A stretch of 64,000 nucleotides of DNA from Haematococcus lacustris. Taxonomy: Eukaryota > Chlorophyta > Chlorophyceae > Chlamydomonadales > Haematococcaceae. The stretch is taken from NCBI GenBank assembly GCA_030144725.1, contig JASKMD010000009.1, forward strand, positions 2,395,031-2,459,030, read 5' to 3'. The notes beneath the pieces were generated by a model that had not been told where the DNA came from, made no database searches, and saw nothing but the letters and a program-made list of their open reading frames with translations. A program made the translations under genes and the position numbers. This document shows, one piece after another, positions 33,630-63,036 of the stretch. Numbering within the stretch: the first letter of the stretch is position 1; the number at the start of each line of letters is the position of its first letter.

Positions 33630-33764
33630 ATGTTTCACCAGCCTAATGAGCCACTTGCCTGTGAGCATTGTGCACCCCATCCATGCCAGTGCGCATGGGA
33701 ATAGGAATCTGCCTGGACTGGTTTAGGGTGCAACCTACCAGGCGGGGACCAGCGTGTTGCTAAC

Positions 33765-38796: not shown

Positions 38797-40638
38797 ATGG
38801 TGTATGTGAATGAACCATGTAAGCTGGACTCCCCACGCATCCTAGGAGTTGTTTGTTCTTCTATAACAAAACAAGTGCCTCTTCCGTTTGTCTTCACAGC
38901 CAGACTAGGAGGGAGAGAATGTGTAGCTATGATTGACACTGGAGCTACGTACACCATCTTGTCAGAGAAGTGGCTAAATCAACCAGGCTACAAGAACAAA
39001 CACATGAGCGTGACTCTTTTGGAACGAAGGATCTCGGTGGTGGCTGCAAACAATGCATCCATGCCTATCACCCAGCAAGTCCATGCAACTGTGTCAATTG
39101 AGAGGAGTGTTACGCCTGTGGCAGCCAAAATCTTACCAGAGATGTTGGAGGGTATTGACCTAATCTTGGGTGCTGACTGGCAGAAGTCACATGGCGCTGT
39201 GCTGGACGTTGGCTCAAACATATGCCACATCAAAGTCGGCAACAAGTTGCACAAGCTACACTCTCAGCACCACAAGTTCAGGCCGGGCGCAGCTGTTCTC
39301 GCCGCTGTGGCGGACAGTGGTGAAGCAGTGAAAGTGCTGAGCGCAAAACAAGCTGCAAGGGCCCTGAGAAAAGGTTGCTGCAGCGTGCTTGCCCTGGTCC
39401 AACCATCGGCTGCAAATGATGATGAAGGCTGGTACAACGGCAGCCTTGCATCCGTTCTCATCAACAACCAAGAAGGGTGTGAGAGGCCTGGGCTTGTGCC
39501 GGCCTCAGTTATCGACAGCATGGTGCATGAGGAATTCCCAACAGTGTTCCTGGACATGCCAGCTGGACTACCGCCTGACCGAGGGGTAGGCCACACCATT
39601 CGCTTAGAACCTGGACATGCACCTCCTTACCAACGTGCTCGGCGCTACAGTCTGAAAGAAATGGATGAGATGAGGAAGCAGGTAGCGGAGCTGTTGGCAA
39701 AGAAGCTCATTGAGCCTAGCAGCAGTCCGTATGGTGCCCCAGTCTTGTTTGTGCAGAAGCGTGATGGCACTCTCAGGATGTGCATTGATTTCCGCGCGCT
39801 AAACAAACTGACTGTGAGGGATAGGTACCCCCTGCCAAGAATTGACGACCTATTTGACAGAGTCCAAGGGAAGACGGTGTTCAGCTCGTTAGACCTCCAA
39901 AGTGGTTATCACCAAATACGCATCACGCCTGAGGACGTGCCCAAAACTGCTTTCGTCACACCTGGAGGGCAGTTTCAGTACAAGGTGTTGTGTTTTGGGT
40001 TGACGAATGCCCCAGCCACCTTCCAACGTGTGATGAACCGTATCTTTGAGAAGCAGCTGCTGGCGGGCACGGTACTCGTGTATCTTGACGACATCTTGGT
40101 CATGAGTCGTTCGCCGGCGGAGCATGTACAACATCTTCGAGAGGTGTTGCAAGTCATGAAAGATAACAACCTGTATGCTAAGCTTAGTAAGTGTGAGTTT
40201 AACAAACCTGAGCTGAAGTTCTTGGGTCACATCGTGGGAAGGCATGGCATTGCCGTAGATCCTGCCGAAGTGCAAGTCATTCAGGATTGGGCTATGCCCA
40301 CGTGTCTTAAAGAATTGCAGGCATTCCTTGGCCTCGCAAACTTCTTCCGGCGTTTCATTGCAGGCTACAGCACCATTGCTGCACCGCTGACACACCTTAC
40401 TGGTGAAGCTGTGGCGGCCGGTACAAACTGGAGACAGCTCAGTGAGCCTGCTGTAAATGCTTTCAACGCTCTTAAAGAAGCTCTGTGTTCAGCACCTGTC
40501 TTGGCTCTCCCTGACCCGTTACAACCTTTTGAGGTGTGGTCTGATGCCTCACTTGCGGGCACGGGAGGTGTCCTGATGCAAAACGGCAGAGTGGTTGCGT
40601 ACACGAGCCACAAGTTCACTCCGGCTCAGCACAGCTGA
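38797..40638 (+). pseudogene. Gypsy protease-RT, unit 4 (open frame, truncated in RNase H)
   Basis: The only unit with both the motif A aspartate (SSLDLQSGYHQ) and no stop after NNLYA, so its protease and RT domains look intact for 613 codons. It is cut in early RNase H by the tandem-join TGA. It shares GATGATGAAGGC and TTCCTGGACATG with unit 5, and has a private GCCGAAGTGC change near 40264. It could in principle make a protease-RT lacking RNase H and integrase. Confidence 0.88.
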
Positions 40639-41312
40639 GAACGACCTCACCAGTAGCTATTCTGTCACACCAGGACCAACGCAAGGGTGTGGATAGAGGT
40701 CACTCTAGTTTCCCTGCCCGTGGTCGTGGGCGTGGTGTGCAGGGGCTCATGACCTCTGATGAGGGCCACCAGTTCAAGCGTGATGGTGGGCAGTGGCAGC
40801 CAGTGCCACAGGGCTTCGTTCCTCATGGCGGTGGAGGCCGTGGCGGCCCGCTGCGAGGCCGTCGGGGTGATGACCAGTGGGACCGGGGATATGACCAATC
40901 AAGCCAGGGTGAGCGCACCCCATATGGGCGTGACAGGCAAGGCAGGGGTGGCTATGGCCGTGGAGGCGCACGGGGAGGCCAGGGCCGTGGCAGCCAAGGA
41001 GGCCCAGGAAGTGGTGGCAGCCAGGGAGGCCCTGGGAGTGGCGGCAGTCAGGGAGGATGGCAAGGAGGCCATGGTGACCAGCAGGGTGGCGGCCAAGGCA
41101 GTTGGCAACGAGGCCACGGTGGCCAAGGAGGCGGTCGGCAGGGTGGCACTCAGCAGCCAGCATTTGCTGCTCCGGTAATGTTTCACCAGCCTAATGAGCC
41201 ACTTGCCTGTGAGCATTGTGCACCCCATCCATGCCAGTGCGCATGGGAATAGGAATCTGCCTGGACTGGTTTAGGGTGCAACCTACCAGGCGGGGACCAG
41301 CGTGTTGCTAAC

Positions 41313-44129
41313 ATGGTGTATGTGAATGAACCATGTAAGCTGGACTCCCCACGCATCCTAGGAGTTGTTTGTTCTTCTATAACAAAACAAGTGCCTCTTC
41401 CGTTTGTCTTCACAGCCAGACTAGGAGGGAGAGAATGTGTAGCTATGATTGACACTGGAGCTACGTACACCATCTTGTCAGAGAAGTGGCTAAATCAACC
41501 AGGCTACAAGAACAAACACATGAGCGTGACTCTTTTGGAACGAAGGATCTCGGTGGTGGCTGCAAACAATGCATCCATGCCTATCACCCAGCAAGTCCAT
41601 GCAACTGTGTCAATTGAGAGGAGTGTTACGCCTGTGGCAGCCAAAATCTTACCAGAGATGTTGGAGGGTATTGACCTAATCTTGGGTGCTGACTGGCAGA
41701 AGTCACATGGCGCTGTGCTGGACGTTGGCTCAAACATATGCCACATCAAAGTCGGCAACAAGTTGCACAAGCTACACTCTCAGCACCACAAGTTCAGGCC
41801 GGGCGCAGCTGTTCTCGCCGCTGTGGCGGACAGTGGTGAAGCAGTGAAAGTGCTGAGCGCAAAACAAGCTGCAAGGGCCCTGAGAAAAGGTTGCTGCAGC
41901 GTGCTTGCCCTGGTCCAACCATCGGCTGCAAATGATGATGAAGGCTGGTACAACGGCAGCCTTGCATCCGTTCTCATCAACAACCAAGAAGGGTGTGAGA
42001 GGCCTGGGCTTGTGCCGGCCTCAGTTATCGACAGCATGGTGCATGAGGAATTCCCAACAGTGTTCCTGGACATGCCAGCTGGACTACCGCCTGACCGAGG
42101 GGTAGGCCACACCATTCGCTTAGAACCTGGACATGCACCTCCTTACCAACGTGCTCGGCGCTACAGTCTGAAAGAAATGGATGAGATGAGGAAGCAGGTA
42201 GCGGAGCTGTTGGCAAAGAAGCTCATTGAGCCTAGCAGCAGTCCGTATGGTGCCCCAGTCTTGTTTGTGCAGAAGCGTGATGGCACTCTCAGGATGTGCA
42301 TTGATTTCCGCGCGCTAAACAAACTGACTGTGAGGGATAGGTACCCCCTGCCAAGAATTGACGACCTATTTGACAGAGTCCAAGGGAAGACGGTGTTCAG
42401 CTCGTTAGACCTCCAAAGTGGTTATCACCAAATACGCATCACGCCTGAGGACGTGCCCAAAACTGCTTTCGTCACACCTGGAGGGCAGTTTCAGTACAAG
42501 GTGTTGTGTTTTGGGTTGACGAATGCCCCAGCCACCTTCCAACGTGTGATGAACCGTATCTTTGAGAAGCAGCTGCTGGCGGGCACGGTACTCGTGTATC
42601 TTGACGACATCTTGGTCATGAGTCGTTCGCCGGCGGAGCATGTACAACATCTTCGAGAGGTGTTGCAAGTCATGAAAGATAACAACCTGTATGCTTAGCT
42701 TAGTAAGTGTGAGTTTAACAAACCTGAGCTGAAGTTCTTGGGTCACATCGTGGGAAGGCATGGCATTGCCGTAGATCCTGCCAAAGTGCAAGTCATTCAG
42801 GATTGGGCTATGCCCACGTGTCTTAAAGAATTGCAGGCATTCCTTGGCCTCGCAAACTTCTTCCGGCGTTTCATTGCAGGCTACAGCACCATTGCTGCAC
42901 CGCTGACACACCTTACTGGTGAAGCTGTGGCGGCCGGTACAAACTGGAGACAGCTCAGTGAGCCTGCTGTAAATGCTTTCAACGCTCTTAAAGAAGCTCT
43001 GTGTTCAGCACCTGTCTTGGCTCTCCCTGACCCGTTACAACCTTTTGAGGTGTGGTCTGATGCCTCACTTGCGGGCACGGGAGGTGTCCTGATGCAAAAC
43101 GGCAGAGTGGTTGCGTACACGAGCCACAAGTTCACTCCGGCTCAAGTCAAGTACACCACAGGGGGGCAGGAATTGTTAGGTATCATAAGAGCAATGCAAG
43201 AATGGCGCTGCTACCTCGATGGAGCAGTGCATGTGACTGTTGTGACTGACCACAACCCTCTGATCTACCTGAAAACTCAAACCAATCTTTCAAGGCGACA
43301 AGCCCGGTGGATGGAATTCCTGGCACGCTTTGACCATCACATTGAGTACAAACCAGGCAAGGGCAATGTGGCAGATCCTTTGAGTCGCAATCCTGGTCTG
43401 ACACATCACGATGACGATGATGACGGCCAACCCATCCTACTCACCATGGGTGCCCAGCTCTGTGTGTCAGGTGTGTATGCCATGGTGATGACAAGGCGAC
43501 AGGCTGGCTTACAAGTGCAGTCTCCTTTTCAGCCCCCACCGGTGCCACCTAGCCAACCAGCTGCCCCCCGCAAGCAAAAGCGTCAGCAGAAGCGTGCGCG
43601 CTGTGCCAGCGGTGGTCAACCTCCTCCCTCCGTGGTCCCATGTGACAAGTGGCCTGATGGGGGGGAGAAGCAGCTGGATTCGGCCACACACACACCTGCA
43701 GGCAAAACCCATAGCACGACGCAAGGAAGCTCACTTGTCAAGGCCATCATCAATGGGTACAGCACCGATGATCGCTTTGCTGATCGTGCATACACCCAGG
43801 CCTATGAGTTGAGCGAGACGGGGCTATGGATGTCGGGCGGAAAGGTGGTTGTACCCAAGAGCCCCTTGGTCAAAAGAGAGGTGCTTGAAGCGTGCCACGA
43901 TGCAAAATATGCCGGCCATATGGGCATGAGCAAAACATGGCATACTGTGGATCTCAGCTTCACCTGGCCAGGCATGCGCAAGGATGTAGAGGACTATGTC
44001 AGGCAATGCGATGCCTGCCAGCGCAACAAGCCCAGCACTCGTCTCAAGGCCGGAAAGCTCCAGCCCCTGTCTATACCTGGTCGTCGCTGGGAAAGTGTGA
44101 GTATGGACTTCATTGTAAAACTGCCAAAG
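41313..44129 (+). pseudogene. Gypsy protease-RT-RNase H-integrase N-terminus, unit 5
   Basis: Unit 5 is the only one joined to the rest of pol. A TAG at 42696 interrupts the RT after NNLYA. The frame then continues through RNase H (WSDASLAGTGG to DHNPLIYLKTQTNLSRRQARWMEFL) and a proline/lysine-rich linker. It ends in the integrase zinc finger (ACHDAKYAGHMG ... RQCDACQ, H2C2) and the first catalytic aspartate (SMDFIVKLPK). Coding is broken at 44129/44130 by the 13.6-kb insertion and resumes at 57775. Confidence 0.88.
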
Positions 44130-44172
44130 CACTCACACAAATTAGCAGCGTCACCTGCTCAGTATCCATGGT
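44130..44172 (+). repeat. Left terminal inverted repeat
   Basis: It begins CACTCACA, then AATTAGCAGCG, and later GTATCCATGG. It matches the reverse complement of 57730-57772 at 37 of 43 positions. The GCAGTATCC word inside recurs in all three satellite arrays. Confidence 0.8.
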
Positions 44173-44200
44173 CACCTGCTCAGTAGCTAGTGTCACCTGC

Positions 44201-44222
44201 GCAGTATCCATAAGGATACTGC
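44201..44222. repeat. Perfect hairpin at the head of the left satellite array
   Basis: GCAGTATCC, loop ATAA, then GGATACTGC: a 9-bp perfect stem. It is the point where the terminal GCAGTATCC word inverts and the array of the opposite orientation starts. Confidence 0.9.
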
Positions 44223-46115
44223 TCTGTAGTCATGTGGATACTGCTACGTATGTATGTGGATACTGCTCTGTAGTCATTGCATACTGCTCTGTAGTCATGT
44301 GGATACTGCTCTGTATGTATGTGGATACTGCTCTGTAGTCATTGCATACTGCTCTGTAGTCATGTGGATACTGCTCTGTAACCATTGCATACTGCGCAGT
44401 AGGCATGTGGATACCGCTCTGTAATTATGTGGATACTGCTCTGTATTAATATAGATACTGCTCTGTAGCTATTGAATACTGCTCTGTAATCATGTGAATA
44501 CTGCTCTGTAGTCATTAGATACTGCTCTGTAGTCATGTGGATACTGCTCTGTAGCCATGTAAATACTGTGCAGTAGTCATGTGGATACTGCTCTGTAGTC
44601 ATTGTATACTGCTCTGTAGCCATGTGAATACTGCTCTGTAGTCATATGTATACTGCTCTGTAGTCATGTGGATACTGCTCTGTAGTCATGTGGATACTGC
44701 TCTGTAGGCATATGGATACTGCTCTGTAGGCATGTGGATACTGCTCTGTAGTCATGTGGATACCGCTCTGTAGGCATATGGATACTGCTCTGTAGTCATG
44801 TGGATACTGCGCAGTAGTCATGTGGATACTGCTCTGTAGGCATATGGATACTGCTCTGTAGCCATGTGAATACTGCTCTGTAGTCATGTGGATACTGCTC
44901 TGTAGTCATGTGGATATTGCTCTGTAGGCATATGGATACTGCTCTGTAGTTATGTGGATACTGCTATGTATGCATGTGGATACTACTCTGTAGTCATGTG
45001 TATACTGCTCTGTAGCCATGTGAATACTGCTCTGTAGTCATGTGTATACTGCTCTGTAGTCATGTGGATACTGCTCTGTGGTCATGTGGATACTGCTCTG
45101 TAGTCATGTGGATACCGCTCTGTAGGCATATGGATACTGCTCTGTAGTCATGTGGACACTGCTCTGTGGTCGTGTGGATATTGCTCTGTAGTCATGTGGA
45201 TACTGCTCTGTAGGCATATGGATACTGCTCTGTAGTTATGTGGATACTGCTATGTATGCATGTGGATACTGCTATGTATGCATGTGGATACTACTCTGTA
45301 GTCATGTGTATACTGCTCTGTAGTCATGTGTATACTGCTCTGTAGTCATGTGGATACTGCTCTGTGGTCATGTGGATACTGCTCTGTAGTCATGTGGATA
45401 CTGCTCTGTAGGCATATAGATACTGCTCTGTAGTTATGTGGATACTGCTATGTATGCATGTGGATACTGCTATGTATGCATGTGGATACTACTCTGTAGG
45501 CATATGGATACTGCTCTGTAGTCATGTGTATACTGCGCAGTAGTCATGTGTATACTGCTCTGTAGTCATGTGGATACTGCTCTGTGGTCATGTGGATACT
45601 GCTCTGTAGTCATGTGGATACCGCTCTGTAGGCATATGGATACTGCTCTGTAGTCATGTGGATACTGCTCTGTGGTCGTGTGGATATTGCTCTGTAGTCA
45701 TGTGGATACTGCTCTGTAGGCATATGGATACTGCTCTGTAGTTATGTGGATACTGCTATGTATGCATGTGGATACTGCTATGTATGCATGTGGATACTAC
45801 TCTGTAGTCATGTGTATACTGCTCTGTAGTCATGTGTATACTGCTCTGTAGTCATGTGGATACTGCTCTGTGGTCATGTGGATACTGCTCTGTAGTCATG
45901 TGGATACTGCTCTGTAGGCATATAGATACTGCTCTGTAGTTATGTGGATACTGCTATGTATGCATGTGGATACTGCTATGTATGCATGTGGATACTACTC
46001 TGTAGGCATATGGATACTGCTCTGTAGTCATGTGTATACTGCGCAGTAGGCATGTGGATACTGCTCTGTAGGCATATGGATACTGCTCTGTAGTCATGTG
46101 GATACTGCTATGTAT
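44223..46115 (+). repeat. Left 22-bp satellite array
   Basis: About 1.9 kb of tandem 22-bp monomers with core GGATACTGCTCTGTAG and a variable ATG-containing spacer (CATGTG, CATATG, CATTGC). Some monomers have CGCAGT or TATGTA in place of CTCTGT. A higher-order repeat of 506 bp (23 monomers) is visible: the TTATGTGG block at 45235 recurs at 45741, and the one at 45433 recurs at 45939. No gene is present. Confidence 0.93.
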
Positions 46116-46333
46116 CTACATATAAAAAACTTAAGGGTGCAAGAAAAATGTGCTCGGAATGGCCTGCGATTCAACGTGCGACCTCTCCTAACTTCAACAC
46201 CGCATAGTACATCGAGGAAATCGAGCGCGACTCACTGTGCGGTAAGATCGAAAGTCGTTCTGAAATTTGGAGGCCTTAAAAATAGAGATGAGTAGTGGGT
46301 CTGGTAATGTAGACGCCAGCGCGTCTACTCGCG
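46116..46333 (+). other. Unique leader before the Rep/helicase start
   Basis: A short non-repetitive, lower-GC stretch between the satellite array and the first ATG. It probably holds the promoter and 5' UTR. I see no strong TATA box apart from an A/T-rich ACATATAAAAAAC at about 46118. Confidence 0.4.
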
Positions 46334-49300
46334 ATGTTTCGTTTTGAATGGTCTGGCCGGCCCGTCAACCGACAGCCCAGTCAACCCTCAACCCCTACGG
46401 AGTACAGCCTCTTTCATGACGTCCCCCTTTATGCGTTGGCCTCCATGCCTTGCGTTTGCGGCTGCTCTTCAGCTGTTCCCTTCACTGGCATTGGCGGTGA
46501 GCGGCTGCAATTCGTGCATTTCATTCCAAGGGGTACGCTTTGCAATGTACAGGTTTCCACGCAGGTATCCAGCGACCGGCAGGACAGCCAACATTCAGTT
46601 GTCAGACGACGACTATTCACGGATGCCGAGCTTGCGGGACCCGCAATCGGTGGCATCTCTGCTCACGGTTCAGCAACGCAGACGGGTCGGCTGTCCCGTT
46701 TCCTTAGCCCAGCCCACAGCCCTCAAGCGCCAGCAGCCATCCGCCAAAGGCTGCTGACAACAACCTTCAGCCCTCTCCGCATCAGCCAAGTGTTGTTCCC
46801 TCTGCATGATGCCATTCCCCTGTCAGCCGCTGAGCTTTCACCCCGGGGTGAGCCTCCCACCCAACCACGTGGCCTATCCCCAGCACACCTCCCCCATTTG
46901 CCTGGAGCCCCAGCGCCAGGGGAGCCAGCAGGACGGGGCAGAGGCAGGCTCAGGGGGAGGGGCAGGCCAAGGGGCACAGGTAGAGGTGGAATATCCTCTG
47001 TGCATGTTGGGCGAGGTAGGGGTGGGGGCCGCCGTCCACAAGCAATGCGGCCATTGCTGCCAGTTTCACCTGCTGCACGCCCCATGGCAGCCTCTCCCGT
47101 ATTCCCCGCTCCAGCTGCTCCTATTCTGCCCCCTCAGCCACGCTACCCCCGCCGTAATCAGCCCCCCTTGCCGGCTGCAGATGCCTGGTTGCTGTCCTCC
47201 CTCACCCCTCCAGAATCCCCAATGCAGTCTGACTCTGACAACGACTACCAGCCAGTGGCAGCAGCACGGGGTCGGGGCCGGGGTTTGGGTAGGGGTGGGG
47301 ATAGGGACATCATGGACTCAGACTCTCACCCTGACTTCCTGCCTGCAGCCGCAGCGAGGGGTGGGGGCAGGGGCCGTGGGAGACGAGGGGCCGGGGCGCA
47401 CCGCAGCTTCAGGGCTGCTCAGGGTGACTCCCTGGCACACGTCCAGCGCCACATCCTGGCCAGCCGGCAAGGCTGCCTGTGCTCCCACTGTGGGGCCTCC
47501 ATGTGGCCAGCTGAGCGCATCTCAACCACCAGCTTGGCCAACCCTGTGTTTGGGCTGTGCTGCGCACGAGGCCAGGTGCAGTTGTTCCCCCTGCCAGAGC
47601 CTCCTCAGCCCCTTGCGCGGCTTTTGCAAGAGCAGACGCCATGTGGAAGGGGGTTCAGGCAGGGCATCCGGCAATACAACTGCAGCCTGCAGCTGGCCTC
47701 CTCTGCCATCCGTGTTGACCGCAGCATTGAGAACGGCGTGCAACAGATTGTGGTCAATGGCGCTGTGCACCACCGCATGGGTGGTCTTCAACCTGCCCCC
47801 GGTGAACAGCCCCGGTTTGCCCAACTGTACATCCTGGACCCGCAGCTGCAGCTTGAACGCCGGCTGGACGTCTTTGAGAACCTGGACCAGCGAGTGCTGC
47901 TGCAGCTGCAACATATGCTCATGCACAGCAACCCCTATGTCCAGGGCTGCAGGTCTGCCATGGAGCGGGCCGCTGCAGACACTACTCAAGTGTACCGCCT
48001 CATCATCAGGTACAACGGCAATAACAAACCCGTGCAATCTTTGCAACCAGCAACATGTGCAACCTGTGCAATCAGGCCCGCCTGCCCACTTGCAGTGCTG
48101 ATGTGCCTGTGGCTGATCAAAGGCGCTACAACCTGCCAGTAGCCTGCGAGATTGCTGGCTTTATGCCTGGCGCGGAGGACGACCAACCGCCCGAGGTGAG
48201 GTGTCAGTTGCCCACATGGCCATGACCTCATCTTTTAACATGCCTTTGTTGCCTGCTTGTGGCAGAACCCCCATCGTCAGATCGTGGTACACACTCGCGA
48301 TGGCACCGTGAGGTTCCTGTCCGATCTTCACCCCTCCTACCACCCAATGCACTTTGTTTTGCTGTTCCCAAGAGGTGAGCCCAACAAGTCCATCATGACC
48401 AAGCATGCAATACCACCTTATTCAACCATGCACCGTTGTGCTGCACAGGCGAGGTTGGCTGGCAGCCCAATATCCCTTTGGTGCAGCCACAGCAAGAACA
48501 GCAGCAGGATCCAGCTCAGGGGGAGCAAATGGTCAGGGGGAGAGGCAGAGGGAGGGGCAGGGGGAGGGGCAGGGGGAGGGGCAGGGGGGCTCAGCATGCC
48601 CGGCAGGCAGAGGAGGGCGTCCTGCCTGATGAAAACCTTGGGGTGGAGGATGAGCTAGAGGCTCGGCAGCGTGCCATCACCCCCAGGCAACACGCCGCTT
48701 ACCGCCTAATGCAGAGACCCGGCGAGAGCCAGGCCATGTTCTGCGCAGGCCGCCTGATGCAAGAGTACGCTGTTGACTGCTATTGCCAGGTGGGTGCTAC
48801 TGCCAGGGTAGGGTCAGGGTCATGGGTGTGCCATGCCATGTCTGTGACATGCCTGTGCCATGGTTGCAGGTTGAGAACCAGCGGCTCAGGTACCTACGGT
48901 GCAACCAACCTGCTCTGAGAGCTGACGTGTACCGTGGCGTGCGCGATGCCCTGGCAGCTGGAGAGGGCGACATGCGCGCAATCGGGCAGCGGATTGTGCT
49001 GCCCTCCTCCTTCATTGGCAGCCCGCGACACATGCAGCAACTGTATCAAGACGCCATCAGCATTGTACGCCACTTGGGCAAGCCAGACCTGTTTGTCACC
49101 ATGACTTGCAACCCCAAGTGGTCTGACATCACTTGCGAGCTGCTGCCTGGCCAGTCCGCAGCCGACAGGCCGGACCTCACCACGCGGGTCTTCATGCTCA
49201 AGTTCAAGGAACTCATGCGTGACCTGACTGACCTCCATGTCCTGGGCCGTATCACCGGCCACGTGCACTGCATTGAGTTCCAGAAGCGTGGGCTGCCACA

Positions 49301-52300
49301 TGCCCACATCCTGCTTTGTGTCGCCCCTGAGGATCAGATCAGGAGCCCGGATGATGTTGACAAGGTCATCAGCGCTGAGATCCCGGACCCTGAAGCTGAC
49401 CCACAATTGTACGCAACTGTGACTCAGTAGGTAGTGCCCCCCCACTACAAGTAACTATATGCCCTGATTGCCCCAACCCTGGCAGTCCTAGCCCAAGCTG
49501 AAGCCCTTGCCTCGGTTGCACCATCACCTTGTCAAATTGCATGTCTCATGTCTCATGTGTGTCATAGACCGCCTTTGTGCCGGTGGTGGACTGTGAATTT
49601 TGCACAGGTGCAACTTGCATGGGCCGTGTGGCCAGGCCAGGCCAAGCTGCCCATGCATGAAGGACGGCCGCTGCTCCAAGGGCTTCCCCAAGCCCTGGTC
49701 AGAAGCCACAATCGACGGTGATGATGCCTTCCCGGTGTATCGACGGCGTCAGTATGTCAACAACGACCCTGCCGAGCCATGGCGCACCATCACAAAGCGT
49801 GTCAGTGGCAATGGTAAGCAGCCACCTCCGCAGCACATCAGCCACCCACAGGCAACCACACACCCTTTCACCACACCTCACACTCATACCCCACATGTTG
49901 TGTCACACTGTAGATCACGTGCTCACCAACCAGTACATCGTGCCTTATAACCCGGCCCTCACCAAGAAGTTTGACTGCCACATCAACGTGGAGTGCTGCG
50001 CCACCATCCGGGCGGTCAAGTACCTATACGCCTACGTCTACAAAGGCCATGACCGTGCTCAGGTAAGACATCACCACTTGCAAGGGCTTGCCATAGCAAG
50101 GCAGGCCGCACACCAGGGGCTCCCTTGTTCCCTAGCAGGTTGGCCGGCAAGGGCTGGAGGAGGTGGACGAGATCAAGGACTACTTGGATGGCCGCTATGT
50201 GTCTTGCAGGTGTGTTGATGTTTTAAGGGCTATACTGCAATACGGCACAGTGTGGTCTTGGCTTATGGCTTGCCATGCGCTGCAGTGAGGCCATGCACCG
50301 CATCTTCGCTTTCAGCCTGCATGGAGAGTACCCACACGTGTACCGCCTGGCAGTGCACCTGCCGGGCTGTGAGTCTATCACATTTCACGAGAACTGCCCG
50401 GTGGAGCAGTTGCAACAGCTGCAACCGCCACGGACTACGCTCACCGGATGGTTCTTGCTTAACCAGTCAGACCCTCAAGGTGTGCCACAACATGTCAATT
50501 GACGCTCTGCCTGCTGCCTGACTGCTCGGTGGCTTGCATGCCCCCTGCCTGCCATGCCTGTCCGCTCACTTGCTTGCCTGACAGCCCTGCTTCACTGCCT
50601 ACTGCCAGCCCCCCTGTCTACCCCCCTGCCCCTTTGCAGCACGAGCCCTCCTATACCCTGACCTGCCCCAGCGCTATGTGTGGCACAAGCCCAACAAGCA
50701 ATGGAAGACCAGACAACGCGGGAAGCCCCCCATTGGCCGCATGTACACCTGCCACCCTGGGGACAGCGAGCGCTACCACCTGAGGCTGCTGCTGCATCAT
50801 GTGCGAGGCGCAATGTCCTTTGAGGACATCAGGAGGGTCAATGGCGAGGTGAGGTGGGGCCAACTGCTGCTGCCCAAAACCTGAATGTTGCGAGCTGCTC
50901 TGTCACACACCATGTAGTGGTGGCTCACAGGTCTGTGCAACCTTCCAAGAGGCAGCCCGCCGGAGGGGGCTCTTGCAGGATGGCGCAGAGTGGGACCGCT
51001 GCCTTGAGGAGGCCGCTGAGGAGCAGATGCCTGTGCAGTTGCGTGCCCTCTTTGTCACCATCCTCACTCACTGCCAGCCGCCTGACCCATGGGCCCTGTG
51101 GCAACGCCATCAGGCTGCCATGTCGGAGGACATCTTGCACCGTGTTCGCCGTGACCTGGACCTGCCCACCCTGGAGCTCAACCCCCAGCACATCAATGAG
51201 GCACTGCTAGACGTGCACCAGCAGCTGCAGCGCATGGGCCATCCATGGCCTGTGGGGTTCCCAGCTCTTCAGCAGGTGCGCTTTGGGATGCAAGCATAAA
51301 GTCAGCCCAGCCTTCCACCAAGCCAAGGCCACACCTCCGCACAGCCCATTACATTGCCCATCACACTGCCCATCACACTGCCCATCCCATCGTGATCCCG
51401 GTCCCTCCCCCTTCCTTGCCTTGGATGTGTGCAGCCTCATGTTGCTGGACAACTGAATGTGCTCATCCGTGAGCAGCTCCGCTATGACCCAGAAGCCTTG
51501 CGGCGTCACGTGGCAGCCCAAGTGCCAAAAATGAACTTGCAACAGCGCCGACTGTATGAGGGCGTCATGCGTGCCGTAAACGGGGACCCTCCCCTTCAGG
51601 GTCAGCGCCGCTCCAAGGCCTACTTTGTGTACAGCCCGGGTGGTTGTGGAAAGACCTTTATGTTTGACCTGCTGTTGGCCAGCATCCGCTCCCAGGTGAG
51701 AAACCATGGCCAGACCTACGCCAATTGCTCACATGCCTCCATGCCTCACCATGGCCTCTGGTCGCTATTGCACCTGGTGCAGGGCAAGATTGCATTGGCT
51801 GTCGCATCGTCTGGCATTGCCAGCCTACTGCTTCCGGGGGGCTCCACCGCGCACTCACGCTTCAAGATCCCCATAAAGGTCCATGCTGAGTCCTTCTGCA
51901 GTGTGCCAGCAAGCAGCGATGTGGCGGCGTTGTTGCGATGCACCCACGCTATCTTTTGGGACGAGGCCCCCATGGCTCACAAGCACTGCTTCAAGGTCAG
52001 CGTGGGCTGCAGTTTGGCTGGCATGCTTGCTGCGATCCCGTTTGGGCTTGCATGTGTGGATGGATGGGTGCATGTCTGGCTGTGTGCAGGCCCTCGACCG
52101 CACACTACGAGACCTCATGGCCACTGAGGATGAGCAGGCTGCTGGCCAGCTGTTCGGCGGCAAGGTGGTTGTGATGGGTGGAGACTACCGCCAGGTTTTG
52201 CCAGTGGTGCCACGAGCCTCTCGCGCAGGCATTGTCGCTGCCGGGCTGCAGAGCAGCAGCCTGTGGGGCCACATCAAGGTGGTTCGCTTGCAATCCAACA

Positions 52301-53323
52301 TGCGTGTGCAGCAACTGGCGGGCACCGATCCGGAGCAGGCGCAGCGGCAGCAGGAGTTTGCTGATCTGTTGTTGGCGGTGGGTGCGGTGTGGCACAGGCC
52401 AGGCACTGTAGGGTGCCTTTCAATGCCGGTGTGGGGACAAGGTGCTGCTAAGTGAGTATTGAAAGTCAGGTGCCTGGGTGGTGCTGGTGCCACAGGTGGG
52501 CGAGGCGCGTAGTGGCTGCCTATTTCGCATCCCCCCCTCCATGCTGGTGGATGGGGCCGACTTTAAGCACCTCGTGCAGCGTGTGTTTGGTGACTTGCAA
52601 CACGATGCAACAGCACGCTGTCAAGAGGCCCTGCTGGGTCGTGCCATCCTTGCACCAAAGAACAGCGACGTCAACGCCATCAATGACTACGTGTGCAACC
52701 TATGTCCTCAACAGCCGCAACACTACTTCAGCGCCGACTGTGTGGGGCAAGACGACAACGCCACGACTTACCAGACTGAGTACCTCAACACCTTGCTGCC
52801 ACAAGGTTTCCCACCCCACCACTTGAAGCTCAAGGTCGGCTTGCCCATCATGCTGCTCCGCAACATTAGCCCCACCTTGGGATTGGCCAACGGCACCCGC
52901 CTCCTTATCACCAACCTACGCCAGCACGTCCTTGTGGCCAAGATCCTGACTGGCAGCTCTGCCCATGTGGGCACCGAGGCCCTCATCCCCCGGTGCACCC
53001 TCACTTCCAATGAGGAGGGCCTGCCGTTCACGCTCATCCGCAGGCAGTTCCCAATCAAGCCAGCCTTCGCCATGACAATCAATAAGTCCCAGGGCCAGAC
53101 ATTCCGCAGCGTCGGCGTGTACCTTCCCAGCCCTGTGTTCTCACATGGCCAGCTCTATGTGGCGATGTCTCGGGTGGGCCAGGCATCAGGCCTTAGCATC
53201 ATGGCCGCGCACCCGCGACCAGCACGCGCCACGGACACTACGGCGGTGTACACTGAGAATGTGGTGTACACCGAGGTGTTTAATGCCTTGCCACCCGGCC
53301 CCGACGACGATGAGGGCTGGTGA
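46334..53323 (+). CDS. Helitron-type replication initiator/helicase, 15 exons
   Basis: Rolling-circle Rep fused to a PIF1-like helicase, 1851 residues. Exons by GT-AG rule and phase: 46334-48009, 48096-48195, 48266-48374, 48449-48789, 48870-49426, 49608-49813, 49914-50062, 50139-50209, 50286-50479, 50640-50848, 50931-51275, 51435-51695, 51783-51995, 52090-52386, 52496-53323. Their sum, 5556 nt, is divisible by three and every junction keeps phase. An Arg/Gly/Pro-rich N-terminus precedes a cysteine cluster (CLCSHC, about 381) and a Helitron_like_N domain. The HUH motif PHAH is at about 885, and the paired-tyrosine region YLYAYVYKGHD at about 1033. Helicase motifs are GGCGKT (about 1388), DEAP (about 1466), GGDYRQ (about 1507), NKSQGQT and YVAMSRV (about 1795). 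It looks intact. The first exon start and the exon 14/15 junction are the least certain. Confidence 0.87.
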
Positions 53324-53745
53324 CATGCCATGCCAACTTGCATGAGCTGGCACCACCGCTGCTGCCAGTGTGAATGCAGTTGCCATTGCAACTGTTCCAG
53401 CCACACACTGTTGCTGCATACGCACACACCGCACACTACAAAACTTATAACTCACACACGTTGTTTCAATTGCAGATTTCAGATAAAAAACTCCCACACA
53501 TTATTTCAAATGCCGGGAATGCAGAGCAAACATCATGCAAGCATGACAACATCATCAACATCCACGCAAGTGGGCTTATTTGCATGTGGGCTTGCTTGAA
53601 CAGTTGTCTATTGGGTTGTTTGATAAAGGAAACTTATTGTTACATGTGTTGCCTGCTGGCCGTCCGATGTGGGACGGGCCCACTGCCCTAGTATCGAACA
53701 AATACGAAATGGATGACAACTAATGTAAGACATGTGCCCATGCAG
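53324..53745 (+). other. Spacer after the helicase stop
   Basis: About 420 bp of lower-GC sequence with TTGTTTCAATTGCAG and AAACTTATTGTTACATG. It is likely 3' UTR of the Rep/helicase transcript or an intron leading to the exons below. No domain was recognised. Confidence 0.4.
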
Positions 53746-56191
53746 AAATTGACTTCATTACACCAGGTGCCGTCCCTGCCCAAGCCAGCAACGCTGATGA
53801 CATGGAGCCAACGGTGGTAGAGGGGGCTGGAACGGATGCCCCACAGGATGTGGTGGCGGCGGAGCAGTGAGTGCACACCCACTAACTCAAGAGCAAGGCA
53901 GTAACCAGTCATAGGTCTGATGTGTGATACCCCCTTTCGCTCCAACCAGGCACATGTGTAAGCGTAGCTGTGAGCCTCATGATGATGTTGGTGGTAATCC
54001 TCTGTGTTGGTTGCAGCCCAATCAGCGAAGGGGGGAACCCCCCTGCAGAGACGCCTCATGCTGGGGCAGCCCTAGCGGCCAGCTCAAGTGCCTCTCCGCC
54101 AAAGGGAGCTGCCGAGGTGGCAGGCACAGCGGGACAGGCAAAGGCGTCTTCAGGTGAGTTGGTGTCTTGGGTACAGGCAGGTCAAGAAGCTGTAGGGGCG
54201 CTAGTACAATGAGCAACATTGTGCAGGCTGGCCCCATAGGGCTCACGGGATGTGGTGGGTGTTGCGGGGCCAACCAATCAAGCGCATCACAGGTAAGCAC
54301 GGCAGCATATGAATCAATCCAAGGTGCAAACACGTCGGCCGGTGATGTCGCTGATGATCCCTTGCTCGGTGCCCTTGTGTATACAGAGCCAGATGTTGCA
54401 GTGACGGCGAAACATGCCTCACCGTCACGCGCTGGTGGCAGAAGTGACAAGGCTGCAGAGCAGGTGCTGCCAAGCCAGATCACCATATCATATCACCATA
54501 AACATAAGCATGGCTACAGAGCAGTGTCCTTATAACTACTGAGCAGTATCTACTTGCATACTGCGCAGTAACTAATGGATACAGAGCAGTATCCACATAA
54601 CTACAGAGCAGTATCCATATGCCTACAGAGCAGTATCCACATGACTACAGAGCAGTATCCACATGCCTACTGCGCAGTATCCACATGACTACAGAGCAGT
54701 ATCCACATGACTACAGAGCAGTATCCACATGCCTACTGCGCAGTATCCACATGACTACAGAGCAGTATACACATGACTACATAGCAGTATACACATGCCT
54801 ACTGCGCAGTATCCACATGACTACAGAGCAGTATCCACATGACTACAGAGCAGTATACACATGACTACATAGCAGTATCCACATGCCTACTGCGCAGTAT
54901 CCACATGACTACAGAGCAGTATCCACATGCCTACTGCGCAGTATCCACATGCATACACAGCAGTATCCACATGCATACATAGCAGTATCCACATAACTAC
55001 AGAGCAGTATCCACATGACTACAGAGCAGTATCCACATGACTACAGAGCAGTATCCACATGCCTACTGCGCAGTATCCACATGATTACAGAGCAGTATCC
55101 ATATGCCTACAGAGTAGTATCCACATGCATACATAGCAGTATCCACATGCATACATAGCAGTATCCACATAACTACAGAGCAGTATCCATATGCCTACAG
55201 AGCAGTATCCACATGACTACAGAGCAGTATTCACATGCATACATAGCAGTATCCACATGACTACAGAGCAGTATACACATGACTACAGAGCAGTATTCAC
55301 ATGGCTACAGAGCAGTATCCATATGCCTACAGAGCAGTATCCACATGACTACTGCGCAGTATCCACATGACTACAGAGCAGTATCCACATAACTACAGAG
55401 CAGTATCCATATGCCTACTGCGCAGTATCCACATGCATACACAGCAGTATCCACATGCATACATAGCAGTATCCACATGACTACAGAGCAGTATCCATAT
55501 GCCTACAGAGCGGTATCCACATGACTATAGAGCAGTATCCACATGACTACAGAGCAGTATACAATGACTACAGACAAAGGTGAAATGGGCAGTTATCGAA
55601 TGGCAAGTTATATACCCCGCTGAAATCGTTGCATGGCAAGCACATGTAATGTGGTGTTGTTGTGCAGAGCCAAGGTGTCGAAGGTGCCGGAGCAGCTGCT
55701 GGTGGCCTTCTCGGTGACACAGCAGGTGAGGCAGGAGGCCAGGTATAGCAGTGGTGAATAGAGGTGCCACCAATACCAGCCCAATCTAGCTCAGACATGA
55801 CTGTAAAGACTGTGATGCAATGTGTGTGCAGATATCCCGGAAGTCCTGATTCTCGGTCTTTGAGGCCAGGGCTGCTAAGGCAGCCAAAGCTGCAGCAAAG
55901 GTGGCCCAGGGGGGGGCTGCCACGGCGGTACCAGCAGCAGCGGTCCAGGGTGGTCTAGCTGCGGGAGAGGAGAAGGGTGGGGCCAAGCAGGTGGACAAGC
56001 CAGCTGCAAGCAGGGGTGGAAGCCAGGGCAGGAAGGGGGGCAGAGGCAGGGGCAGGGGCACTGGCAGCGGCAGTGGCGGTGGCAGGGGCAGAGGCGGGGC
56101 CAGGGGCGGAAGCTGGGGCAACGGGCAGAAGGGTGCTGGGGAAGGGGGTGGGGGGGAGGCTCCACCGGCTAAGCGCCACAAGGGACAGTAG
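53746..56191 (+). CDS. Possible second gene: acidic exons and RGG-rich end (uncertain)
   Basis: Two phase-compatible exon candidates have GT-AG borders. 53746-53866 codes EIDFITPGAVPAQ...VVAAE. 54017-54153 codes an Ala/Ser/Pro-rich piece, PISEGGNPPAE...GQAKASS. Downstream, beyond a satellite array, 55850-56191 is open in one frame, EARAAKAAKAAAKVAQ followed by RGG/GRG repeats and PPAKRHKGQ with a TAG stop, a basic nucleic-acid-binding tail. I could not settle the linking exons (candidates near 54230 and 55670). This may be a separate accessory gene or an alternative 3' end of the Rep/helicase gene, with the array lying in an intron. No family was recognised. Confidence 0.35.
54535..55575 (-). 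repeat. Right 22-bp satellite array, inverted relative to the left one
   Basis: About 1 kb of 22-bp monomers, core CTACAGAGCAGTATCC, the exact reverse complement of the left array core GGATACTGCTCTGTAG. Variants with CTGCGCAGT and CATAGCAGT mirror those of the left array. Together the two arrays form a very long inverted repeat around the Rep/helicase gene. Confidence 0.93.
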
Positions 56192-56724
56192 TAAGGGGTT
56201 GTGTATGGCGCCAGCAGATCAATAGCCATTACACATCATCACACCCCGACCACAAGGTACACATGGGGCCAATGCAGGTGTGCGTCAGGCTGTTGTTGCT
56301 GCTCAAGTTGCATTGATGTTGGTGTGGTGGTGAAAGGGCAGCTGGTCATGATGTCGTTGCCTCTCATATGTTGTCGTTGTCAATGTTAGTGATGCTGGTA
56401 AATGAGCCTGATGACGTGTGTAAGGTCCACACAGTGTAAGAGCCCAGCCCACAGTAATAGTAAGTATCCCATCATCTGGACCCAGGCAACATGGGTTAAG
56501 GTTTACACGGACTTAATCAAGGGCAGGAATAGGCTTGCGGCATCAACAGGAGGTTAACCATCATCATCAGCAATAACCGCTGTCACACCAACCCACACAA
56601 CACACAGTAGAGAAAAGAAGGAAGTTGTGCAACAGAGTTGCGCCAGAGCATGGTACACACGCGCATAACCACAATGGCGTTGCAGGGACACAATAGCAAA
56701 TGATGTCGTCACCTGAGCAGTATC
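56192..56724. other. Unassigned spacer in the 13.6-kb element
   Basis: About 530 bp between the RGG-rich open frame and the third array. No open frame of note, no tandem structure and no recognised motif. Confidence 0.5.
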
Positions 56725-57715
56725 CTTAGTCGACAACGAGGTATCCATAGACGACAGCGCAGTATCTATGGGTGACTGAGCAGTATCCATGGTTGACTGA
56801 GCAGTATTTATGGTTGACTGAGCAGTATCTATGGTTGACTGAGCAGTATCCATGGTTGACTGAGCAGTATCCATGGTTGACTGAGCAGTATCCATGGTTG
56901 ACTGAGCAGTATTTATGGTTGACTGAGCAGTATCCATGGTTGACTGAGCAGTATCCATGGTTGACTGAGCAGTATTTATGGTTGACTGAGCAGTATCCAT
57001 GGTTGACTGAGCAGTATCCATGGTTGACTGAGCAGTATCCATAGTTGACTGAGCAGTATCCATGGTTGACTGAGCAGTATCCATGGTTGACTGAGCAGTA
57101 TCTATGGTTGACTGCGCAGTATTTATGGTTGACAGCGCAGTATCCATGGTTGACTGAGCAGTATCCATGGTTGACTGCGCAGTATCCATAGTTGACTGAG
57201 CAGTATCCATGGTTGACTGAGCAGTATCCATGGTTGACTGAGCAGTATCCATGGTTGACTGAGCAGTATTTATGGTTGACTGAGCAGTATCCATGGTTGA
57301 CTGAGCAGTATCCATGGTTGACTGAGCAGTATCCATGGTTGACTGAGCAGTATTTATGGTTGACTGAGCAGTATCCATGGTTGACTGAGCAGTATCCATG
57401 GTTGACTGAGCAGTATCCATGGTTGACTGAGCAGTATCTATGGTTGACTGAGCAGTATCCATGGTTGACTGAGCAGTATCCATAGTTGACTGAGCAGTAT
57501 TTATGGTTGACTGAGCAGTATCCATGGTTGACTGAGCAGTATCTATGGTTGACTGCGCAGTATTTATGGTTGACAGCGCAGTATCCATGGTTGACTGAGC
57601 AGTATCCATGGTTGACTGCGCAGTATCCATAGTTGACTGAGCAGTATCTATGGATTACAGCGCAGTATCCATGATAAGCAGCGCAGTATCCATGATAAGC
57701 AGCGCAGTATCATGA
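56725..57715 (+). repeat. Third array, 21-bp satellite
   Basis: About 1 kb of 21-bp monomers, core TGGTTGACTGAGCAGTATCCA, with CTATGG, TTATGG and CGCAGT variants. It shares GAGCAGTATCCA with the 22-bp family and with the element ends. Because 21 is a multiple of three, all frames avoid stops over long distances, which explains the long repetitive open frames on both strands here. They are not genes. Confidence 0.93.
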
Positions 57716-57729
57716 ATAACAGAGCAGTT

Positions 57730-57772
57730 ACCATGGATACTGCGCAGTTATCGCTGCTAATTCCTGTGAGTG
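57730..57772 (-). repeat. Right terminal inverted repeat
   Basis: Ends CGCTGCTAATTCCTGTGAGTG. It contains a near-palindrome GCAGTTACCATGGATACTGC (57724-57743) just inside, which could form a hairpin. Confidence 0.8.
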
Positions 57773-58860
57773 AGAGTGGTGAACGTGGATTTGACAGTAT
57801 CCTAGTATTCGTAGACAGACTCAGCAAAATGGTGCATCTCGTACCCACCAAGGAGAGCATCAGTGCCTTCGACATGGCTACACACTTCTTCCATGAGGTC
57901 GTGCGCCTGCATGGCATGCCAGCCTCGGTGATCACAGGCCGTGGCCCTCACTTCAACAGCCACTTCTGGGAACATGTATGCGCCCTGTGCAAAGTGGCCC
58001 ATTACATGTCCAGTGCATATCATCCCGAGTCTGACGGCCAGACAGAGCGAGTAAACAGAGTCATTGAGGAGATGCTGCGACACTATGTGAACGATGCCCA
58101 CACAGACTGGGCAGAACACTTGCCTTGGGTTGAGTTCGCTATCAACAACTCCTGGCACGAGTCAATCCGCCAAACGCCGTTCTTTCCGAACTATGGGCAG
58201 CATCCGCTGACTCCTGCGACGTTGGATCTACTGCGCAAGGTTCCCAAGGCTTCTGCGTTTGCGGAAAATGTGGAGAAAGAGGTGCACAAAGCCAGACAGT
58301 GTTGGCGTGAGGCTCAACAACGCATGAAAGCTCTGGTAGACGGCAAGCGTCGTGAGGTGACGTACAAACCAGAACAGCTGGTAATGCTGAGCACTGTCAA
58401 CATGAGAAAACGAAAGGATGAGGTGGGGGTGCGCAAGCTAAAACCCCGATATGTCGGCCCCTTCGTGGTGCTACGCATGATCGGGTTGGTTGCGGTGCAA
58501 ATCCAGCTACCGCACCGATGGACCCGCATGCACAACGTGTTCCATGTCTCCCTGGTGAAACCCTACCTCGGCACTCAAGCGCCAAACATGGCAGCACCTC
58601 CGCCTGTACAGTGGCTTGACGGCGAGCCAGTTTACGAGGTGGAAAAGCTGTTGCAACACAAGCTGGTGAAAGTGAGAGGCCGGGGGAATGGGAAAGGGCG
58701 CAAGCCAAGCAAGAATGTGAAGCAAGCTCTGGAGTTTCTGGTTCGATGGGTGGGCTACTCTGAGTAGCATGACACCTGGGAGCCTCAAAGGAATTTGGTG
58801 AACTGCGACGAGGCCCTGCAGCAGTACATTCATGAGCATGGACCGCTGCCGGTTCCATAG
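57773..58860 (+). pseudogene. Gypsy integrase core and chromodomain, 3' part of pol
   Basis: This continues the integrase begun at 43860: FDSILVFVDRLSKMVHL, then the core with HPESDGQTERVNR (catalytic glutamate present). The second catalytic aspartate is lost: the usual SDRG context reads ITGRG, with GGC at 57937. Next come the GPF-like module (LKPRYVGPFVVLRMIG) and HNVFHVSLVKPY, then a chromodomain (VEKLLQHKLV ... FLVRWVGYSE). The chromodomain is interrupted by TAG at 58765 just before HDTWEP. The frame then runs to TAG at 58858. The chromodomain would direct integration to marked chromatin. Loss of the core aspartate makes the integrase inactive. Confidence 0.88.
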
Positions 58861-59245: not shown

Positions 59246-59250
59246 GTCAA

Positions 59251-61210
59251 CGGCCACCTCACCGACAGCTTCCCCCTTGCGTCGGGGCTGCTGCAGGGTA
59301 GCGGGGCCTCCCCGCTTACTGGTGCATCGTGCTCCAGCCGCTGGTCAGCTACCTCAGCTCGCTCCAGCTGGCAGGCCGCATCAGCACCCCCACCATCACC
59401 TCCAGCCCTCTGGCTATGCATAGGGCCGCCCTGACCCCCGCGCTCCCCTCCAAGGAGTATGCGGACGACCTCACCATCGTGGTGCTCGATCGGGTCAGAG
59501 ACGGGAAGGTGGTAGTGGAGGCCCTAGGCCTGTTCCGCGCCGCTGGGGGCCCTGCGCTGAGTGTGAGCAAGAGCTCAGCCCTGCCGTGCGCCCAGCCAGA
59601 GCCCGGGCTGGGTAACCAGGGGGGCTCGGGCCCCGAGGGGGCGGGGAGGGGAGGAAGGGTGGGTGACGGGGGGGAAGGGGGCTGGCAGGGGCAGGTGGGC
59701 GAGCAGGGGCTAGGGGGTGGGCTGGGGGAAGGTGGCGGGCTAGGACAGCAGCAGGGCGGGCGGGAGCAAGGTGGGGAGCAGGTGCCGGAGGTGGTCATCC
59801 CAGCTGTCCGAGCGGGGGTGCCAGTGCGCCACCTGGGGGTCCCTCTTGGGGCGGCCTCCTACGCTGCCACCAGCAAGGCCGCCTTCGGTGGGGCGGCTGC
59901 GGCCATGATGGCAGCCTCCCTCCCTTGGCGGCCCCAAGGCCTCAACCTCCTGGGGCGGGTGCAGGTGGCACAGCAGTGCCTGGCCTCCAAGTCCATCTAC
60001 CAAATGGCCTTCGTGCAACCCTCCGCTCCTCTGACGCAAGCCATGGCCTTGGCTGTCAACCGCTTTGTGGCAGCCTCAGATCTGCCCCAGGAGCGCAGCC
60101 CTAACAGCAGCCGCCTCTACCCTAGCAAGGCCATCTGCGTGATGCCCCGGGGGGAGGGAGGGGTGGGGCTTCCCGACCTGGGGGTCACCAGCACGGCCAT
60201 GCTGGCGAAGATGCTGGCCCTGCTCTGGTCGCCCCGGGTTCGTCCCTGGCAGCCTCTGACCCACAGCCTGCTGGCAGACCCCTCCCACGGCCTCAGCACG
60301 TGGGTCATCACCGACCCCACCGCCACCCCCTCGCGAGGCATCAGCCCGCGGCTGCAAGCTCACGTGGCGGCCCTGGCTGAGCTCAAGCTGTTCCGTGCGG
60401 TGCCCCCCGCTAGCCAGTCCTTCTTCTCGGTGCTGGCAGAGCCGCTGTGGTACAACGCGCAAGTCCGCATGAACCCAGTAGCTAGGGAGGCAGCAGCTGA
60501 GCAGGGTTGGACCCACGTCCGCCACGTGAGGGAAGCCCTGCATAGCCCCCAGCTGGAGGGGGAGGCCCGATGGGCTGCCGACCTGGTCAGGGCTTGCCTC
60601 CCCGAGCCCTGGCAGGGCATGGTGGACCGCCTGCAGCCTCCTCAGCCGGAGTGGGAGTGCCTGAGGGTTGGGCCAGGGGTGGGGTTTGTGATGCGGCGCA
60701 CCCCCCTGCTCCAGCCCTCCCACTGGGTGGGCCCCAACGGCCGCCTCTACTCCCTAGACCCCACAGGGCAGGGGCCCCTAGGGGCTTTCTGGGCGGAGGG
60801 AGGGGCGGCCTGGGAGCCAGCTGCTGTGGCCCGTCTCAACAAGCCCAGCTACAGGCTGACTCCGGAGGAGCGAGCCACCCACCTTCGCCCTCTACCCGCC
60901 CAGCATCACGTGGCGCAGGAGCAGGCTCAAGGGCAGGAGCAAGGAGGAGCCGGGGCGCTTGGCAGGGGAGGGGGGCGGGCAAGGGGGCGGGGCGGGGGCA
61001 GGGGGCGAGGGCGTGGAGGAGGTGGAGGGCGTAGGGGAGCAGGGGGCGGGGCGGGAGGGCAGGCTGCCGACCCAGCTGACGAGGGGCCTGGCACCTGGCC
61101 TAAGGAGGAGTGGCTCTTGGGCCCCTGGGCTCACCTGCAGCTGGACCCTCAGGTGTGGGGCATGGGCACCACCACCCTCCTGGACTTCTCTGTCAAGCAT
61201 GCCAGGGTGC
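59251..61210 (+). mobile_element. L1-type LINE, copy E, right part (RT to linker)
   Basis: LINE sequence continues exactly where it stopped at 27018, at CGGCCACCTCACC. It carries the family-wide one-base loss near 59315, then an open frame through YADD (about 59459), the glycine-rich insert and the RT thumb to 61210. There the next LTR element cuts it about 1 kb before the zinc finger. The A-tail of E is not in the window, unless E continues beyond the right edge. Confidence 0.87.
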
Positions 61211-62817: not shown

Positions 62818-63036
62818 CACCCTTTTCGCCTCTCGCACTTTTCGCCTCTCGCACACTTTTCGCCTCTCGCACTTTTCGCCTCTCGCACTTTTCTTCACAC
62901 TTTTCGCCTCTCGCACTTTTCGCCTCTCGCACTTTTCGCCTCTCGCACACTTTTCGCCTCTCGCACTTTTCGCCTCTCGCACTTTTCGCCTCTCGCACTT
63001 TTCTGCACACTTTTCGCCTCTCGCACTTTTCGCAGC
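62818..63036 (+). repeat. 16-bp minisatellite following truncated gag
   Basis: Tandem CTTTTCGCCTCTCGCA units, some 18 bp (extra CA) and some deleted (CTTTTCTTCACA, CTTTTCTGCACA). The array keeps the gag frame open to about 63139, giving a repetitive tail of RLSHFSPLA type. Confidence 0.92.

Follow-up and report, generated by a model that had tools for sequence, protein, structure and literature searches.

A Helitron1 nested in a transposon with terminal inverted repeats, itself nested in a Ty3 retrotransposon of Haematococcus lacustris

Introduction

Helitrons are known as elements without inverted ends and without target duplications. In Haematococcus lacustris (H. pluvialis) a Helitron-type Rep/helicase (RepHel) gene lies between terminal inverted repeats (TIRs) bordered on both sides by AG, and at first sight this locus is an exception to the rule. 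The DNA analysed here, referred to as the window, is 64,000 nucleotides long (contig JASKMD010000009.1, positions 2,395,031 to 2,459,030, assembly GCA_030144725.1), and coordinates below count from its first letter unless a contig name is given. An earlier note on this DNA had left three options: a CACTA-like transposon that took up a whole rolling-circle gene, a Helitron that inserted into such a transposon whose satellites grew later, or a lineage of Helitrons whose inverted ends are genuine. Is this one unusual element or are several ordinary ones present? Our results show that a TIR DNA transposon inserted into a Ty3 retrotransposon, with the target AG duplicated at 2 bp, and that a Helitron of the Helitron1 type lies in this transposon between A and T without duplication, as judged by its own ends and by other copies. 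Taken as a whole, the locus almost certainly consists of three unrelated mobile elements nested in one another: Helitron1 in a TIR transposon in a Ty3 retrotransposon. The apparent puzzle of a RepHel gene between inverted repeats dissolves because two elements are nested. The inverted ends are a property of the outer element, and the Helitron thus breaks no rule.

Results

Insertion of the outer element into Ty3

The outer border is defined by the following features.

42699..44129, + strand: left part of Ty3 pol (RNase H, H2C2 and the first portion of the integrase core; Pfam RT_RNaseH and Integrase_H2C2, and empty sites)
44128..44129, no strand: left copy of the AG target duplication
44130..57772, no strand: outer TIR transposon including the nested Helitron (TIRs, empty sites, genome matches of the ends)
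44130..44172, + strand: left TIR, beginning CACTCACA (37/43 against the right end; genome matches of its first 21 bp)
57730..57772, − strand: right TIR
57773..57774, no strand: right copy of the AG target duplication
57775..58767, + strand: right part of Ty3 pol (remaining integrase core and SH3-like domain; Pfam SH3_Tf2-1 above cut-off)

Three statements of the earlier note concern this border, namely a 43-bp inverted repeat with 37 matches, an AG on both sides, and an integrase frame restored by deletion, and all three were borne out. The TIRs match at 37 of 43 positions without gaps, which none of 2000 shuffles reached. The flanks, CCAA-AG before the element and AG-AGTGG after it, are identical at 2 bp only, neither at 1 bp nor at 3–9 bp. 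Once the element and one AG are taken out, the Ty3 integrase can be read through in frame, and protein P0173 (99% identity over 200 aa) crosses the restored junction ungapped, although its residue at that codon is N instead of K. The Ty3 host is up to 99% identical to Haematococcus lacustris proteins; on the fragment 57775..58767 the Pfam profiles rve and Chromo stay below their own cut-offs. With the Ty3 flanks joined, 97 of 240 proteins match and 85 span the junction, 6 of them ungapped, 69 with one residue less, 9 with two less and 1 with one more. Among the 20 displayed, the Haematococcus proteins P0173, P0155, P0170 and P0123 are ungapped and P0132, P0133 and P0196 are one residue short.

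The same site was searched for at the DNA level with the left flank (92 candidates, 40 scored, 30 retrieved). The empty Ty3 site CCAA-AG-AGTGGTG is present in 29 of the 30 retrieved loci with an identical 100-bp left flank, and the single filled one is the window itself. These DNA-level empty sites settle the insertion point despite the N for K in P0173.

The Helitron and its ends

Inside the outer element a second one is delimited as follows.

46115..53691, + strand: complete canonical Helitron (Helitron1 type), 7577 bp, between A46114 and T53692 (ends common to the C22, C56 and C143 copies)
46115..46132, + strand: Helitron 5' end, TCTACATATAAAAAACTT
46334..53323, + strand: RepHel gene, 15 exons, 1862 aa, with HUH at residue 900, Y2 at 1047 and Walker A at 1400 (gene model; Helraiser 7lcc)
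53658..53680, + strand: hairpin of the Helitron 3' end, with 11 nt between it and the terminus
53688..53691, + strand: Helitron 3' terminus CTAG

All 14 introns of the RepHel model are GT-AG and the reading frame contains no internal stop. The core of the protein aligns with Helraiser (PDB 7lcc) at 846 bits, with E=1.7e-256 for the whole comparison, and the HUH, two-tyrosine and helicase motifs are preserved; the protein has a Rep with HUH and Y2 and a Pif1-type helicase. The RepHel tree was made of the window protein and 116 of the 120 listed matches (4 were excluded by length) and contained no Helitron2 reference protein.

The 5' end TCTACATATAAAAAACTT starts at 46115, immediately after the final unit of a repeat array of the outer element. 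Its TC terminus, in the form of TCTACATATAAAAAA after an A, is found in the window and in five of six other copies, as is the 3' CTRR end with a hairpin about 11 nt upstream. Insertion is between A46114 and T53692 without duplication. No terminal inverted repeats were found on the Helitron: the longest inverted match between its ends is 4 bp, and 495 of 500 shuffles gave 4 bp or more. The first 20 nt are unpaired and a weak hairpin lies at nt 21–41. At the 3' end, none of 400 shuffles of 53324–53744 gave a site as strong as the observed one. With a criterion that tolerates bulges the site at 53688 is the best of three within 46116–56740, and it is the only CTAG/T among 28 hairpin-plus-CTRR/T sites in 128 kb. 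Alternative 3' ends at 54432 and 49695 were rejected, having weaker scores and no CTAG. It is important to note that the hairpin alone is weak evidence for the 3' end.

Other copies of the Helitron

The 308-Mb assembly was searched with the profile PF14214, which gave 18 matches, 7 of them strong, including the window, and about 14 kb was retrieved around each of the six other strong RepHel loci. Both Helitron ends are common to five of these six. The C22 copy aligns in a single piece from 46114 to 53692 (88.6%) and the C56 copy from 46111 to 53692 (87.6%). For three copies on C143 the alignment starts at 47087 and reaches 53692, 53693 or 53710 (90.4–90.5%), with a separate piece for the 5' end from 46113 or 46114 to 46167; the overrun to 53710 is due to shared letters TATC after CTAG. 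In all five copies the 5' end shows A followed by TCTACATATAAAAAA, and the 3' end shows GATGTGGGACGGGCCCACTGCCCTAG. The flanks of the C56 copy are contiguous in C143a and C143b, which represent an empty site without duplication. A TIR of the outer type (up to 2 mismatches) was found in none of the six RepHel regions.

Some of these copies stand head to tail. In C22 (L013 and L014, C22:7537500-7552000, offset 10411/10412) and in C143b the CTAG of one copy is followed without a gap by TCTACAT of another, TA lies between copies in C143a, and a shortened 5' end comes next in C143c (the C143 copies correspond to L017–L022). Head-to-tail Helitrons are as expected from circles or from read-through.

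RepHel relatives were also found in four GTDB contigs. In the two of these that were checked the hairpin-plus-CTRR end is absent, which is no real control since the contigs stop 106 and 471 bases past the match. The TIR has no match in GTDB contigs, and scans of IMG/VR contigs gave neither a match for the Helitron 5' end, the TIR or the 22-mer described below nor a RepHel relative.

The outer element and its family

With the Helitron left out, the outer element consists of 44130–46114 and 53692–57772, a net length of 6066 bp, and its letters across the Helitron site would read ...GTA followed by TATCGAAC... It contains the following further features.

44150..46114, + strand: subterminal arrays on the left, a 21-mer in 3 copies followed by a 22-mer in about 87
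53745..54463, + strand: exons of a repeated Haematococcus gene of the outer element (Ulp1-like motifs by eye), with the protease core missing here (matches P0241–P0243)
54509..55574, − strand: inner subterminal array, inverted with respect to the left one and lying where the outer gene has an intron-like stretch
55668..56193, + strand: probable last exons of the Ulp1-like outer gene (from our own model alone; P0241–P0244 do not match here)
56741..57694, − strand: right subterminal array (21-mer)

Of five core 10-mers that were counted, four are confined to the outer parts and one occurs nowhere, so that none is present in the Helitron. The 22-mer arrays 44214–46114 and 54509–55574 lie in opposite orientation, and over about 990 bp their likeness reaches 90%.

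When 2 mismatches are allowed, the 21-bp pattern CACTCACANNAATTAGCAGCG has 188 forward and 201 reverse matches in the genome (389), and the backward control has 0 and 0. Thirty of the 389 end loci were retrieved as 3 kb each, of which 1.5 kb is interior. Twenty-one of these ends fall into 11 pairings; nine were dropped, eight without a listed partner and L058 as a tandem repeat of the L059 end and its flank. Ten of the 11 pairings have identical 2-bp flanks (TG, CG, CA, AT, TA, TG, AT, CA, TA and TA), and 3 bp are equal in none of 11. The pairing that does not match, L081/L082, uses the same left end as L081/L083, which does match. At this locus (C22:8185535-8190954) two reverse TIR ends follow one forward end and only the outer pairing has an equal 2-bp flank, which suggests a nested or rearranged member.

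Helitron DNA is present in none of the 30 TIR-end loci at E <= 1e-10. The loci L061 and L062 lie 6.9 kb apart; the first is 92% identical to the outer left arm over 1066 bp and the second 94% identical to the outer right arm over 1527 bp, arrays included in both cases. By these alignments L061/L062 (C2:644399-651291) is a close relative with the same arrays, Helitron-free in the stretches compared.

The exons 53745–54463 match the C-terminal part of P0241–P0243, and a short stretch matches P0244. In our model of the outer gene exon 3 is absent from P0241, where exon 2 is joined to exon 4, and the acceptor of exon 6 is a guess made to preserve the frame. In L067, one of the 30 end loci, about 450 bp separate the TIR end from the core of this gene on its inner side. 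This position beside a TIR end indicates that the gene belongs with the outer family; the window holds a copy without the front of the gene. No significant match for the outer gene was obtained in Pfam or PDB (the weak best ones include Peptidase_C57, E 0.24). The designation Ulp1-like rests on motifs seen by eye and on the name Ulp family that one source gives to P0244, whose match is only E 0.1. The structure prediction for the relative P0242 has a mean predicted local distance difference test score (pLDDT) of 38, and because of this low value we make no claim about the fold. Among three proteins scanned from the outer part of the window none has a Pfam match, and no Tnp2-type DDE transposase was found among them.

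Other features of the window

Upstream of the insertion, partial Ty3 gag-pol units about 99.5–99.8% identical stand in tandem at 29965–43144 with a spacing of about 2516 bp (3135 in one case), which reflects either recent amplification or an assembly artefact. Positions 1–27018 and 59246–61210 hold overlapping, 96–99% identical pieces resembling retrotransposons without long terminal repeats (non-LTR), in many rearranged copies; this reading relies on endonuclease-like and reverse-transcriptase-like open reading frames judged by eye. A 16-bp tandem repeat (CTTTTCGCCTCTCGCA) lies at 62822–63033 within a gag-like open reading frame.

Discussion

The three options of the earlier note can now be weighed. 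The one in which a Helitron inserted into a TIR element stands, and its RepHel gene, which had looked complete to the note, is complete as modelled. A separate pair of Helitron ends inside the outer repeats, which the note had suggested looking for and had itself overlooked, is present as an intact TC...CTAG element, a result that the note had named in advance as refuting its reading. That the satellites grew later finds no support in L061/L062, in which the arrays are already there in the Helitron-free arms. The note had also asked whether other copies of the outer ends and empty sites exist, which they do (389 end matches, and 29 of 30 Ty3 sites empty). It had asked whether related copies always carry the Rep/helicase gene, which they do not (0 of the 30 retrieved end loci of 3 kb each), and whether the 2-bp duplication is constant, which holds among the 11 pairings with the exception of L081/L082.

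A Helitron lineage that acquired real TIRs together with a 2-bp target duplication would account for a complete RepHel gene between TIRs. This arrangement is seen in this one window only. Other RepHel copies have the same ends as at 46115 and 53691 and are free of TIRs (0 of 6 regions), the retrieved TIR ends are free of Helitron DNA (0 of 30), and we give this explanation practically no credence. Capture of the RepHel gene alone as cargo of a CACTA-like transposon (transduplication), without Helitron ends, has a precedent, since gene capture by TIR elements is described in the portion of the grapevine account used here (PMC2528002), and the outer element does bear a Ulp1-like gene. The inserted segment runs from a Helitron 5' end to a Helitron 3' end, exact to the base, as in copies elsewhere, which makes such capture very improbable. 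A different matter is the order of events within the nest. The Helitron may already have been inside the outer element, so that a 13.6-kb composite jumped into Ty3 with the TIR transposase moving the passenger. The outer ends and the AG duplication are intact, and size would be no obstacle, as the TIR pair L059/L060 is 14.5 kb apart and has a 2-bp duplication. Against this, no second composite copy was seen among the 30 of 389 ends, 1.5 kb inside each. We regard this order as possible, with the balance of probability tilted the other way.

Several observations weigh against the nest as we describe it. The left array ends exactly at the Helitron and the DNA to the right of 53691 is not array, and an empty Helitron site of the outer element was not seen in the DNA compared. 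Both empty copies of the C56 site have C where T would stand, to the right of the junction. Four of the five copies (C22 and C143a–c) adjoin, on their 3' side, another Helitron end or a shortened one, so that the 3' border is set against unrelated DNA in C56 only. The C143 copies have extra or doubled 5' tips. The C2 locus (68–75% identity, 500 N) aligns from 46147 to 53292 only and its ends are uninformative. Ranking by energy put the Helitron 3' end 25th of 382 CTRR/T sites, a stem scan without bulges missed its hairpin, and under the later, bulge-tolerant criterion two further sites in the window equal it.

How the elements moved can be proposed from their ends and, for the Helitron, from homology. 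The outer element was placed at a 2-bp staggered cut, as the duplication shows, presumably through a transposase. Cut-and-paste is the most likely mode, in which a transposase supplied from elsewhere would bind the terminal repeats and the arrays. For the Helitron, RepHel and the ends suggest a rolling-circle insertion that proceeds through a single strand. A Helraiser-like movement is most likely: the HUH/Y2 Rep would nick at the 5'-TC, the helicase would then peel off the strand, the hairpin and CTAG would end the process, and the circle would insert at AT.

Nesting of such elements is ordinary. What the analysis removes is an apparent exception to the rule for Helitrons, and it yields a Haematococcus Helitron family whose ends are known to the base, for which an empty site exists and whose RepHel gene is unbroken. 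The high-copy TIR family, with its 389 end matches and 2-bp duplications, merits proper classification. It could represent a distinct algal TIR lineage, marked by ends of the form CACTCACA, by target duplications of strictly 2 bp, by arrays in which a 21–22-bp motif with a palindromic core extends over kilobases, by a Ulp1-like protease gene as standard and by the capacity to take a whole Helitron as passenger, a suggestion that we consider doubtful. We found no description of the outer family in the literature, at the level of titles and starts of abstracts in partial listings, and a literature search combining Haematococcus with Helitron or transposable elements gave nothing on the subject. 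In a term search the words Helitron and CACTA were absent from the main text of two Haematococcus genome papers (PMC10400597 among them).

CACTA elements, in the sections of PMC8978399 consulted, have a CACTA motif and 3-bp duplications, and grapevine CACTA families with Ulp1 domains are known (PMC2528002). Like CACTA (En/Spm) elements, the outer element has a CACT start, subterminal arrays in direct and inverted orientation, a Ulp1-like gene, and TIRs with a target duplication. In contrast to them, its ends are CACTCACA and not CACTA (only CACT is shared), its duplications are 2 bp and not 3 bp, and its arrays measure about 1–2 kb. The terminal motif and the 3-bp duplication of CACTA were thus considered and rejected for this family, and because these two features characterise CACTA elements we use only the label CACTA-like.

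For the Helitron, two systems are of interest. Helitron2 of Chlamydomonas is likewise a RepHel transposon of a green alga, with asymmetric inverted ends and a 5' hairpin in the part of its description used here (PMC3627910). The Helitron2/Helentron pattern (5' hairpin and asymmetric TIRs of 8–15 bp) was rejected for the inner element, since its ends contain no inverted match above chance and its first 20 nt are unpaired; its target is A/T and not TTTT/T or C. The layout of Helraiser (bat Helibat1), as far as the part of PMC4778049 used here describes it, comprises TC and CTAG ends, an AT target and a palindrome that precedes the end by 11 nt. The algal Helitron agrees with this Helitron1 in its two termini, 5'-TC and CTAG-3', in the distance of 11 nt between palindrome and 3' end, in its A/T target without duplication, and in its RepHel with HUH and two tyrosines. 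The algal gene differs in having 14 introns, a long Gly/Arg-rich N-terminus and a site inside another element.

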